Positions 25,644-55,297 of a stretch of DNA of 64,000 bases are shown piece after piece. Position 1 is the first letter of the stretch. Every line of letters starts with the position of its first letter. The stretch is taken from positions 293,793-357,792 of the forward strand of contig JAULBX010008883.1 of the NCBI GenBank assembly GCA_032358255.1, given 5' to 3'. The stretch is from Heterotrichella gracilis (Eukaryota; Sar; Xanthophyceae; Tribonematales; Xanthonemataceae). A program made the position numbers and the translations under genes. The notes beneath the pieces are model-generated. The model was not told the DNA's origin. It ran no database searches and worked only from the letters and a program-made list of their open reading frames with translations.

Positions 25644-26664
25644 TGAGGGATCCTGGTGGGAGCCTCCCAGTGTGTGTGTGGGTGATAGCCATGGGATCAT
25701 TGTGTATGGTGGCGAATGTGAGAGCAGCTACTGGTTGGGACAACCACGCAGCATGCCACATCTTCCAGTTTAGCTGCTGAGCAGTGGATTCGTTGGAGAC
25801 AACAGGTGTTACAGTACAGCTTTCATTCTTGAGCTGTTCATGCTGGATGTGCATGTCAGTCCGACTCACATGTGCACATGGCTGTCTGTATGGCTAGAAC
25901 CTAGGACCTGGTGCTGAGTCTCGATATTAATGCTGTCCCGTCTGATCAGTCGATCAAATCCTTGAAAGGTTTTGCAGCAGCTGCTGCTCCTTACTGTAAT
26001 AATGTATGATAGGCCCTACAAACGGCTTGTTAAAGATTAGCTGATATTTTTGTGCAGTATTGTGAACTGGCATGCCTTCAAGGCTGAATGAACTTCAAGT
26101 TGAGGCAAGGCGCACTGTGCCCATCATATGACATTGGATACGCCCTGTCACTGTGGTGACCATGGCAGCTAGTGGTCTGGAATGCGACTAGCCTGATTGG
26201 AAGCAATGCTATCTGCAAGCGAGGCCATCTGCCATGATGGTCCTGCAATCAACAGCGTTCAAACAAATGCAGCTATGGAAAACTCAGACCAGACCAGTTG
26301 GTGCCTCGGTACCTTTCTTCACCAATAATCATTTTTTTTGTCTCAGCATGCTTCCAAAATGCGCCAACGATTGCCAATACACTGCACTTTTTGCCCAGCG
26401 TGCACAGCCCTCAGTACGACCAATTGGCAATTTGCAACCTCAACATATTATGTTATTAACCAACCCCTTTGGCATCCAGCCGTCAACAATAATCCAACGT
26501 TGTGCACCCCTGCTTGCAGCAGGGAGCTACTTGTGACTCCGTTGCGCTTCTCTCACGAAGCCGAATATAATATAAACGCTGTTCCCCTCCCGCTGCCAAG
26601 GTCAGGCACATGCCCGCTGCACCACCTCCCCAGTGCCACATGACCAGGGTGACAGGCAAGATCA
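25644..26664. other. Convergent intergenic region
   Basis: 3' flanks of the plastid protein gene and the lipoyl-KGD4 gene. No ORF with recognisable features. Confidence 0.5.
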
Positions 26665-28317
26665 CTAGGGTTCTGCCCCTCCCAGCTCAATCATCTCCAT
26701 CTCCCTCTCTGACATGGTCCTCCGCGGGATGAGGTTGGCCACCAAAATTGACTTGGACCGGAAAGCTGCCGGCGTTTTGGGGGACGGCGGGGGCGCTTTC
26801 TCAGATCTGATCACAACTGCAGAAGGAAAAGGACCACGTGAATGCATAGGGCATACGGTACTTAGATGATGAAGAGAGGGGGAAATTGCTATATGGCCCC
26901 GCAGCGTCTGCGACTGTTTTGTAACCCCCCAATCTGGTGCACAATTGCACTGCACGTCATTGCAACGTGACTTGAGAGGTTCTACACACTAACAACACAC
27001 GTTGTCAAAAAAATGAGGGATTGTGCCAAAGTTACATGGATGGCTATGTGGTTAAACGACTCGCCAGCATACCTGTGGGTTGTGAAGGCAGTGGAGGGGG
27101 TTTGGGCGTTGCTGACAGGGACTGCCGGTAAGACACGGCTTCTGCTGCGGGTAGGTTTGACACACGAGCCCCTTCCGGTGTCATACGAGGAGGGAACTTG
27201 ATTGCAGGCTGATATGCGCGTACACTCGGTGGTGGTGCCTGAACTGCTACCGCTTGCGATGTAGCAGTTTGACTGGATGTTGTGGCTGATGCATCTGCAA
27301 CGTGGGACAAGCCAGGCGGTAGTGCATCGACGGCGAGGTGTAATGGCATGTGAACGGCATGCCACTGGCTTTCAATCCCCACGCTGTTCAAGTGGACACA
27401 GCGCTGTGGGTCCATGCAATGTACGATAGGCAAGCGCCAGCCCAGCCCTAATGTGGGGCTGCCTCGTGTGGGCATGCCAACGCGCCAGTTGCTTGCATAC
27501 TGAAATACAGCTCACTGGGCATGCCCTAGTGTGGGGCTGCCTCGTGTGGGCATGCCGTGCAGCACACGAATGCCATTCTACTTACCGGTTGAGAGCTTAG
27601 CAACGGCTTGGCCAACAATCACTGTGTCCTCTTCCTTCACCTGCAAAGCAAGGCGCACACTGAGTGCAGAGGCGAGAGGGGTATATCCTCGAGGCAGACT
27701 TTGGTGCCACAACTTCTATCATCCTATTTCCATATGCATGCTTATACAGCTTGAAGCCAGCCACTGCACCACGCACCAGTAGCGACTCCAAAGTGCCTGA
27801 CTTGGGTGCGCGCACATCGATGGTGACCTTATCAGTCTCTATCTGAATGATGATGTCGTCTTCCGCAACTGTGTCGCCAGGTTGCTTCAGAATGGCAGCC
27901 ACAGTGCCTGGAAAGCAATGCACATTGTAAGTGCATGTTGCAGAGATGGTATGCCATTGGCAGACTCCGGTGCCACATCTTCATCTTCGATTTCCATATG
28001 CATGCATATACAGCATGTCTGAAGCTGGCCACTGCACCACCTTCTGTTATGGACTCGCCCATTTGCTGTATCGTAATGTCCAAGCTTGAAAGCAGGTGCC
28101 TGCTGCTGAAAAACCCATGTATTTGTGTAGCTTGGTGGCCACGGCTTTCGCGCGAGCTGAAGCCATGAAACGAGCTGGTCCCTGACCCATGGCATGCTTG
28201 CAGAGGTGTGTCCGCCAGCCGTAGAGGAACAGCTGCAACGTACTCAGGGCCGGATTGTAACCACCCAGCTATTGGTCGCCGCAGCGCTCGCTGACACCGA
28301 CTGACCGTTGCGCTCAT
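26665..28317 (-). CDS. Mitochondrial lipoyl domain fused to KGD4/MRPS36-type tether
   Basis: Five exons (28041-28317, 27777-27907, 27586-27640, 27073-27294, 26665-26816) join with phases 1, 0, 1, 1 and give 278 residues. Residues 1 to about 75 are an arginine/serine-rich, mitochondrial-type presequence. Residues about 80-154 are a complete lipoyl domain of the 2-oxoglutarate dehydrogenase E2 type: QMGESITEG, then QIETDKVTIDV with the lysine to be lipoylated at 119. A proline/threonine-rich linker follows. Residues 179-191 (VRAYQPAIKFPPR) and 259-278 (SEREMEMIELGGAE) match the two conserved ends of KGD4/MRPS36. That small subunit ties E3 to the E1/E2 core of the 2-oxoglutarate dehydrogenase complex. 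No acyltransferase catalytic domain is encoded, so this is not a normal E2. Lipoyl and KGD4 parts are usually on separate proteins. Fusion is supported by splice phases, not by transcripts. Confidence 0.85.
27448..27555. repeat. Direct repeat in intron 3 of the lipoyl-KGD4 gene
   Basis: A 31-33 base sequence containing gtggggctgcctcgtgtggg occurs at about 27448-27479 and again at about 27523-27555 in the same orientation. Confidence 0.9.
27683..28040. repeat. Homologous 5' halves of two adjacent introns
   Basis: On the minus strand, intron 1 (from 28040) and intron 2 (from 27776) each begin with a GTG-rich donor. They then share about 95 similar bases including gcatgcatatggaaat and a gtggcacc...gtctgcc block (27945-28040 and 27683-27776). 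The coding exon between them is not duplicated. Confidence 0.85.
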
Positions 28318-28951
28318 AGTTCAAGGTTGGTGCAAGGTCGCGGATGCGATACGAAAGCAATGCCCTGGCTCCTGTTCGAGATGGTTTCCTTCTTGCTATG
28401 ACCAACACTACTTCAAAAGGCCGTACTGTCACCAAGTAATTTCCAACGTAAGGCAACAGTGCACAATTTACCAGGCATATAACCCAGACCTCGAGTTGGC
28501 AAGGCTTTATTACCAAGCGCCCACGTGCAAAAGGCACGCCGCAGCCGCCCAAATGCTTTGCAGTTTTTGTTTGCGTGACTAGTTGCAGGTGTACGAAGGC
28601 GCATATGACCTTGTCAGGTCAGCGTTGCCTGCCATGGAGCTGAGGAGCTTGGAACGATGGCTGCTCATTTTGGTATGCATGCATATGTGAATTAGGCGTA
28701 GCAGTAGTGCCACAGCACTAAATCTAGGTGCCCACATGACTGTACAGCTCCAGCTTTGCAGTCCATAGCCAACAGGCGAAGCCTCACGTAAAGGACTCTG
28801 CCCAACTATTCAACAGCAACGCGTTCACATTGTGTAAGTGTGGGACAGTTGGTGTTTACAGAACGGTGTGGGTCACAATCACCAAACCCAAACCCAGCTG
28901 CAACTCAACCATTGCTGCAAACATCCATGCTGCCAGGGGAAGGGAACACGC
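28318..28951. other. Intergenic region
   Basis: Between the lipoyl-KGD4 start and the RPS5 stop. The open minus-strand frame here lacks recognisable features and appears to be chance. Confidence 0.4.
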
Positions 28952-30774
<1,823 letters not shown>

Positions 30775-53000: not shown

Positions 53001-55297
53001 TTGACAATTTAAATAAAACAATTAGAATAAAATCGAATAATTTCAATTCACGCAAAAAATTGGCAATACTAAATAGTATCTATCATGCTCCTCAGGTGGC
53101 CAGGTGAGCAGCAAGGCTGACGTGTACAGCTTTGGCGTCCTGCTGTGGGAGATATGCACAGGCGAGATGCCCAGCCGCGTCAACCGGCGGTCAGTGATCA
53201 TCAACGAGGAGTGTCCGCAGGCAATCGCGGGGCTCATCGAGTGGTGCACAAAGCCCGACGCGGAGGACAGGCCAACCATGCAGGTAACGCTTGCACGCAC
53301 ATACACATGGTACACATGGACGGATCGGCTAAGCATTTGTATCTTCACGGTATCTCTCTCCCCCCTGCTTTATCTGCCGTTGGTGGTCCACTTCCTTGAA
53401 GACCATACCCAAACTACTGTGGGTAATAACGCTGGCTGTAGTGTGTGCTCATCTTGTGGCCCTGTCATGACCCTTATTGCCCCTTCTGTGCAGGATGTGA
53501 TTGAGGTGGTGAAACACGTGCTCAAGGGGCCAGGCTCAGGCAAGCTGTCTGTCGCCTCCTCGGGACAGAGGTACGTGTGCCAGTCCCCACCATTCAACCC
53601 ACCCGCATAGCCAGAATACCATGGCTAGCTATCATCTGCTTCCAGCATGGGGGCCTTATGCCATGTGGTTGTGGCATGATGGTGTATGGGCACAGCTTTT
53701 GCACTTTGTTCATAGAAAAAGCATGATCCAATATGATCACATCTCATCCGATCTGGGTGTGGTGCTGTGGTGCCATGTACCTAACATACCCTTTACCCCC
53801 TTCAGGCAACCCATGCCAGCCAGCGGTGGCTCCGAGCGCCAGTGGCTGATGACCGCCACCGACGTGACCAGCGGGGGGGAGAACCTGTTTGACAGCAACG
53901 TGTCACCCACAATAGATGGCCAACCTGGGGGCCACTACGGGCAGTACAGCACAGGCACAGGTAAGCACCCAGCACCACATCCTCTTCTTGAAATATGCTG
54001 CACATGCTCAACTTCCAACACAGCATGTCGCATCACATAAGCCATGGTCTACCTGCAAAGAATGCACCCCCTGTCTGCATGCGGTGCCTTCTTCTGCATT
54101 TCTTCTGCATTTGGGCCACCGGCGTCTGGTACTACAATCCCCTAACCTGTGCTTAAACCCTTAACCTCAAACCTGAACCCTAAACCCATTGCTGCCTCTC
54201 GTTCAGGCTACACCGCCACCGGCATGTCTGGCATGGGCACCGCAAGCGCGGGTGGCATGAGTACCACCCCCACCGACGACGAGGTGGCGCCCTACCCCAC
54301 CCCCTTCGTCCCGCCCAAGCGCAAGAACAAGGGCCAGGCAGGGTCGGGCTCAGGGTCAGGCAGCGGGTCAGGCCCCGCCAGCGGCGCGCCCGACCTCATG
54401 ACCTTTGACCCCCTGCCGGTGCTGGACGAGGCCTCCGCCACAGGCACAGGCACCTCGGGGCGGTCCATGCAGGGGCAGGGAACCTCCGGGTCGCGGCAGG
54501 GTACCGGCGGCTCCTCACAGGATTCTGGCTCGCGCGCCTCGGTGCCCAGCACGGCCACGGGCGAGGATGAGTACGCGCCCTACCCCACGCCGTTTGTGCC
54601 CAAGTTCAAGCGCCAGATGCCGGCCAGCGCACCGACGTCGGCGGGCGGGCCCATGTCTGGGGCGGGTGCTGCGCCGCCCGGGGCCCAGAGCGTGCCTGTG
54701 CCGGCTGAGGAGGGGGCGAGAGGAGGTGAGAAGCGTGCACGTTGTTCCACTGCTGCAAAAATTATCAAATAAATAAGTTTAATATTGTAAAAAATAATGT
54801 GCTGGGGTAGCAGCTGCGCTGCCAGCAAGGGTTGGTGGGTCCATCATGGCTCCCTGCATGGACCCGAGTGCGCCTGGCATCAGCATCAATCACATTCATC
54901 TGCCCCCCATCATGCCGTGCTGACGTGCCCTTGTGCTCCCCTTGCAGACGACCCATGGGCGCCCTACCCCACCCCCTTCGTGCCACCCAAGTTCCGCAAG
55001 AAGGACAGCCAATCTACCTCCGGCCCAGCTACCCAGTCCCACGAGGAGGGCACAGCGGCAGCAGGTGGACCGGCGAGCGCACCACCCGCGGCAACCGCAG
55101 CGCAGCCGCGGGCGGGCCCCTCGGGCATGCCCGGCATCGTCTCCCGTCTCATGACCCGGCCGTTCCGCCAGACGGAGGAGACCTCCAACCTACTGGCCAT
55201 GGGCCCTGGCCCCGAGATAAGCACCGACTCTGAGGCGGGGCGCAGCACGTCGGTCAAGACAGACAGCACGGGGGATGAGCGGCCGCTGCTGCGGTGA
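47080..55297 (+). CDS. Leucine-rich-repeat receptor-like protein kinase with repeated proline-motif tail
   Basis: Begins with a signal peptide (GAVQLLVLLLLPLTFTAPAA). The ectodomain has an N-terminal cap (EWTGVKCDD, about 48135). Plant-type repeats follow, of form LxNNxLxGxLPxxW, including DLSNNGLSGTFPIEW, LLDNNALTGELPAGW, VLSNNAFVGTLPDEW, VLTNNAIDGSLPEAW, DVGENKLNGTLPASW and NLADNYLTGAIPDSW. Each unit starts a new exon after a phase-2 intron. A membrane span (GVVLGVASAVILAAVGLLFL, about 51485) is followed by HRRNKRRRR. The kinase has GTGGYGKVYKG, EVAVKVI (about 52110), HLDVKSGN (about 52660; leucine replaces arginine of HRD, so non-RD), IADVGLA (DVG for DFG) and WMAPEVL. A long tail from about 53800 carries three APYPTPFVP motifs and ends RPLLR. 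Introns hold A+T-rich patches and telomere-like repeats. Ligand unknown. Confidence 0.9.
50786..50913. repeat. Duplicated exon start flanking telomere-like repeats
   Basis: About 38 bases (intron end, gcag, then aacctggccgacaactacct) occur at about 50786-50823 and again at about 50876-50913. CCCTAAA-type heptamers and degenerate forms fill the 50 bases between. Only the second copy continues into a long open exon. Confidence 0.92.
52833..52866. repeat. Tandem 9-bp microsatellite in a kinase intron
   Basis: Three units of ctagtaacc lie just inside the intron after the kinase APE exon. Confidence 0.9.
54281..55001 (+). repeat. Three copies of the APYPTPFVP(P)K motif in the kinase tail
   Basis: Copies encode DDEVAPYPTPFVPPK (about 54272), EDEYAPYPTPFVPKFK (about 54563) and DDPWAPYPTPFVPPKFRKK (about 54949). 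Each has acidic residues before it and lysine/arginine after it. Serine/glycine/threonine-rich low-complexity sequence separates them. Confidence 0.95.

Follow-up and report, generated by a model that had tools for sequence, protein, structure and literature searches.

A minus-strand gene in the window (the whole 64,000-nucleotide stretch analysed) joins, in a single predicted open frame, a lipoyl domain of the E2o type to a tail resembling KGD4/MRPS36. The fusion product is probably an E3-tethering subunit of the 2-oxoglutarate dehydrogenase complex (OGDHC) that carries its own lipoyl arm, to judge by its sequence and by the other OGDHC genes of the same assembly.

Splicing of five minus-strand exons (28317-26665), the junctions of which were deduced from the sequence alone, yields 278 amino acids and a stop codon. 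All introns are GT-AG and have the phases 1, 0, 1, 1, so that the five-exon structure with matching phases claimed by the sequence-only reading is upheld, and the region is free of any N. From its N-terminus, the protein consists of a presequence-like start, the lipoyl domain, an Ala-, Thr-, Ser-, Gln- and Pro-rich linker, the motif VRAYQPAIKFPPR, a variable middle and the motif MSEREMEMIELGGAEP; import into mitochondria is predicted. The splice-site scores are ordinary for the genome, save for the weak acceptor of intron 1. On a codon scale where introns score -0.52 and known coding sequence +0.44, exons 1 and 4 lie nearer to introns.

Table 1. Features of the predicted lipoyl-KGD4 fusion gene (positions in the window; scores of splice sites in bits).
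Feature	Position	Strand	Description	Splice sites	Codon score
Exon 1	28317-28041	-	N-terminus resembling a presequence; first part of the lipoyl domain, up to ITEG	donor 7.2	-0.33
Exon 2	27907-27777	-	Central part of the lipoyl domain, including Lys119 (codon 27830-27828)	acceptor 1.2, donor 8.2	+0.30
Exon 3	27640-27586	-	End of the lipoyl domain	acceptor 6.8, donor 7.7 (CCG/GTAAGT, exon/intron boundary at the slash)	+0.31
Intron 3	27585-27295	-	291 nt; lies between the lipoyl and KGD4-like parts		
Exon 4	27294-27073	-	Linker, beginning at residue 155, and the first (N-terminal) KGD4-like motif	acceptor 5.2, donor 7.9	-0.25
N-terminal KGD4-like motif	27223-27185	-	VRAYQPAIKFPPR, in exon 4		
Exon 5	26816-26665	-	Variable stretch, C-terminal KGD4-like motif and stop (26667-26665)	acceptor 11.5	
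C-terminal KGD4-like motif	from 26715	-	MSEREMEMIELGGAEP, in exon 5, at the protein end		
Lipoyl domain, residues 81-152	28077-27593	-	PF00364, E 2.1e-17; span takes in introns 1 and 2		

In a Pfam search of the 278-residue protein, the Biotin_lipoyl match reached 63.1 bits against a cut-off of 22.1, and the lipoyl lysine is Lys119, within ETDKVTIDV. The two best NCBIfam models for the fusion are SucB (E2o) equivalogs, which match its N-terminal part only and score far under their full-length cut-offs. These matches agree with the earlier assignment of the domain to the OGDH-E2 type with lysine 119. Neither an acyltransferase domain nor an E3_binding domain was matched by Pfam in the protein. 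Across the assembly, PF00198 gave 21 matches and PF02817 gave 10, none of them on the contig of the fusion (C90), and an E2-like inner core domain was matched neither in the fusion protein nor on that contig. Correspondingly, the claim that a catalytic acyltransferase domain is absent was borne out.

KGD4/MRPS36 is normally a small separate subunit, and it is not known outside eukaryotes; Heublein 2014 is said to be the original KGD4 paper. All comparisons of the tail used a provisional copy of the human MRPS36 sequence. The conserved N- and C-terminal motifs of KGD4/MRPS36 are both found at the two ends of the tail, in the order they have in MRPS36, and EMExIxxGG stands at the extreme C-terminus of both proteins. 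In one BLASTP comparison with the provisional human sequence, 9 of 18 residues at the C-terminus of the tail were identical (E 3e-4), and the alignment covered this C-terminal end only. Shuffled tails matched the real score against the provisional MRPS36 sequence in 42/5000 cases for the N end and 0/5000 for the C end, in 2/5000 for the global alignment and in 0/5000 for the sum of the N and C ends. PF10937 (Kgd4-YMR31) matched neither the 278-residue protein nor the tail, and a search of the assembly with this model gave no match, nor did any control give a signal; the provisional human MRPS36 sequence scores 25.8 bits against it (cut-off 22). Because the Pfam model misses the tail and its identity rests on similarity to MRPS36, the tail is termed KGD4-like and is not filed under PF10937. 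The statement that both ends of KGD4/MRPS36 are encoded therefore stands as a likeness to MRPS36 and does not extend to a match with the Pfam family. A PDB search with the tail returned 0 matches, and one with the provisional human MRPS36 sequence returned three weak, unrelated matches. Searches that detect close relatives only confirmed no relative of the tail among 51 candidate stretches in IMG/VR or among 591 in GTDB contigs.

The assembly (68.5 Mb in 903 contigs) contains further parts of the complex. The 21 matches to the acyltransferase model were grouped by us into 11 loci, five of which are intron-split (on contigs C77, C86, C192, C404 and C629). Whether the genome holds a conventional E2o had been left to a search by the sequence-only reading; C77 carries an ordinary intron-bearing E2o (sucB equivalog 501.4 bits, cut-off 378.65) with its own lipoyl domain and its own catalytic domain. 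The E3_binding model matched at 10 of the 11 E2 loci, and C77 is the sole locus without a match. As the search reads exon by exon, an intron-split E3_binding domain at C77 could be missed; none was found in a hand-spliced C77 protein, the linker exons of which are uncertain. The statement that eukaryotic E2o lacks a peripheral-subunit-binding domain (PSBD) agrees with the finding of none at C77, against one at each of the 10 other E2 loci, and the C77 E2o is therefore a place where KGD4 would be needed. In the available text of PMC9974300, eukaryotic E2o is described as devoid of a PSBD and MRPS36 is proposed as its substitute, a pattern that C77 follows. Two intron-bearing E1o-like genes are also present: one on C216 (best PDB match OGDH, 736.7 bits; DHTKD1, 602.4) and a more divergent one on C771 (OGDH, 519 bits; DHTKD1, 442.2). 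Intronless bacterial-type E2 genes lie on C1, C72, C111, C331 and C518, and for this reason the assembly appears to include bacteria.

A stand-alone KGD4 was sought in the same assembly. Used as a protein query, the tail retrieved, apart from itself, two weakly matching sequences (E 0.76 and 1.15), and a strict C-terminal motif retrieved the fusion and one unrelated place. A broad C-terminal DNA motif occurred at 34 places against 29 in the reversed control, which is chance level; five of these besides the fusion were inspected (on C555, C57, C553, C875 and C477), none of them KGD4-like. The provisional human MRPS36 sequence retrieved nothing, and as the fusion itself went undetected this query cannot exclude another KGD4. 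The search for a stand-alone KGD4 called for by the sequence-only reading thus returned none, by weak tests.

Among the five lipoyl domains compared with that of the fusion, the domain of the C77 E2o is the closest (49/77 residues identical); the identities are 35/76 for the E2o of PDB 9njt, 30/76 for bacterial SucB, and 27/77 and 21/77 for two other bacterial E2 proteins. Over 60 hand-picked, gap-free codons, from which the most divergent stretch was left out, the fusion and C77 differ with a pN of 0.135 and a pS of 0.730, and the pair therefore appears to be maintained by selection; on the same codons dS is about 2.7, with synonymous differences near saturation. The lipoyl part is interrupted by introns after ITEG and SLL in the fusion and after KQPG in the C77 E2o, and because the introns sit elsewhere the lipoyl copy is probably not recent. 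A recent copy of the end of the C77 gene was rejected on the differing intron positions and the dS value together. The C77 domain also bears a two-residue insertion behind the lipoyl-lysine strand (DVKYMERAPGV; C77 L033, about 3100-2950, minus strand), which is missing from the fusion and from the other four domains compared.

In our judgement, a single mRNA probably encodes both the lipoyl and the KGD4-like parts, as read from the splice sites and frames around intron 3. The main alternative, two adjoining genes or two products in which a free E2o-type lipoyl protein is accompanied by a separate KGD4 starting from an ATG in intron 3, seems unlikely. It arises because retention of intron 3 would end the lipoyl protein at LSTGK-stop, two codons past exon 3, and because the reading frame of exon 4 stays free of stops over the 72 codons before it (27511-27296), which include ATGs. 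KGD4 has also been wrongly annotated as fused before, since a Chaetomium 'fusion' to holocytochrome c synthase is described as a mis-annotation in the accessible part of PMC10203282. Against two products, the GTAAGT donor and a matching acceptor connect the two parts in phase, the E2-style linker comes after that acceptor, and a lone E2o-type lipoyl domain beside KGD4 would itself want explanation. Open stretches of such length are moreover frequent (8.6% of 7052 training-intron stretches and 12.8% of sampled window positions), and the one above exon 4 scores -0.39, equal to open intron stretches (-0.40), and includes a direct repeat. The repeat is of about 34 bases, with copies at 27556-27523 and 27478-27445 (minus strand). 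The codon test itself is weak against the two-product reading, because exon 4 too has a negative score.

The reference for the splice scores of intron 3 was a set of introns obtained by spliced alignment from seven genes of the assembly; 27 of 54 were kept, on at least three identical residues in about 10 codons on each side, and 27 were dropped, and a few of the retained introns are questionable. Its donor (7.7 bits; training median 9.1) and acceptor (5.2 bits; median 8.5) rank at 0.37 and 0.30 in leave-one-out comparison with the 27 introns, so that neither falls outside the range of the training set. The acceptor used is the best among those listed near the junction, and the second best, at 27272 (4.9 bits), does not, by our arithmetic, keep the phase. 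A donor at 27640 (7.9 bits) scores a little above the one used at 27585, and 27640 is the start of exon 3. Of 3352 points sampled in the window, 32 had a splice pair as good as that of intron 3; this chance figure depends on thresholds fitted to the sites actually seen and on a single, arbitrarily chosen phase. The pentamer TGTAA, a poly(A) signal in Chlamydomonas, occurs on the minus strand of 25700-29000 only at 28860, 27036 (within intron 4) and 25813, and gives no clear message.

Two further explanations accept that the lipoyl part is extended and read the product differently. The fusion might be real and yet provide no working OGDHC arm, its lipoyl domain being unlipoylated or structural or serving another complex, for example with the E1o-like enzyme of C771. 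The presence of that second, more divergent E1o-like gene would suit such a role, which is nonetheless improbable, given that the lipoyl lysine is preserved together with its surroundings and that purifying selection acts on the domain relative to the C77 E2o copy; in animals, moreover, such E1 enzymes share E2o. A chance resemblance of the tail to KGD4, in which case a lipoyl protein would simply carry an unrelated or disordered extension, is highly improbable. It would account for the missing PF10937 match and for the empty PDB search, though the provisional human MRPS36 sequence fared scarcely better in the PDB; the agreement of both ends with MRPS36 in the right order, down to the shared motif at the very C-terminus, speaks against it.

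It is proposed that the fusion, read as an E3-tethering subunit with its own arm, works in the manner modelled for MRPS36, which the available portion of PMC9974300 places with its C-terminus against the E2o core and its N-terminus against E3. The C-terminal motif of the tail would anchor the fusion to the E2o core, and E3 would be held by the first motif. As MRPS36 contacts the E2o core and E3 in that model, the link would be one between E2o and E3; the linking of E3 to the core proposed by the sequence-only reading is retained, and its description of KGD4 as an E1/E3 tether is not. Lys119 would be lipoylated; E1o could then reductively succinylate the arm, which the adjacent E3 would re-oxidise. 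Held on a short linker beside E3, the arm would lie within reach of E1o and of neighbouring E2o arms, with which it may exchange. The earlier reading had left a choice between an extra arm and a replacement of the arms on E2. Since the C77 E2o retains its own lipoyl and catalytic domains, replacement is not supported, and the fusion would add arms. The order of lipoyl domain, E3 binder and core anchor, which is also that of bacterial E2o and of the E3BP of PDC, would have been reached here by another route. The chances appear even that the only E3 tether of OGDHC in this lineage is lipoyl-fused, which would give the complex two kinds of swinging arm, on the core and beside E3, and would make KGD4 an E3BP-like subunit with the bacterial order and no E2 domain.

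Several known systems resemble the fusion in part. With KGD4/MRPS36 (E3BPo in Chaetomium, as named in the accessible text of PMC10203282) it shares both conserved ends in the same order and the company of an E2o in which no E3-binding domain was detected; here, however, the KGD4-like part lies behind a lipoyl domain, has a longer middle and falls below detection by PF10937. Like E2o/DLST (SucB), the fusion has an E2o-type lipoyl domain, closest to that of the assembly's own E2o, whereas it lacks the acyltransferase domain and its intron positions are unlike those of the C77 gene. If read correctly, it would share with E3BP/protein X of PDC a lipoyl domain, an E3-binding part, a core-binding part and the lack of an active acyltransferase, but it has neither PF02817 nor an E2-like core domain and bears KGD4-like motifs instead. 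Lipoyl domains are likewise found on non-E2 components at the N-terminus of an E3 (PDB 5u25) and on PDH E1-beta (PRK11892), both weaker matches of the fusion lipoyl domain; the partner is an enzyme there and a small adaptor in the fusion.

How eukaryotic OGDHC holds E3 is still debated, as the accessible text of PMC9974300 and a result cited in that of PMC8146983 differ: in the latter, adding MRPS36 to human OGDHC brought no gain in activity in transfected-cell lysates, and for this reason the role of MRPS36 itself is disputed. If the fusion is as described, it would indicate, on independent genetic grounds, that KGD4 acts next to the lipoyl arms, would supply structural studies with a ready-made construct and would show that evolution has reached an E3BP-like subunit by a second route. 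No lipoyl-KGD4 fusion appeared in the titles and abstract openings surveyed, nor in the accessible portions of PMC9974300, PMC10203282, PMC8146983, PMC7050145 and PMC13311838; such fusions may already sit in databases as unnamed entries or be common in a clade.

Elsewhere in the window, a partial gene for the large subunit of ribonucleotide reductase (PF02867, E 6.9e-18) lies at 12876-12421 on the minus strand, and the last part of a protein kinase domain (PF07714, E 3.1e-9) at 53104-53610 on the plus strand.
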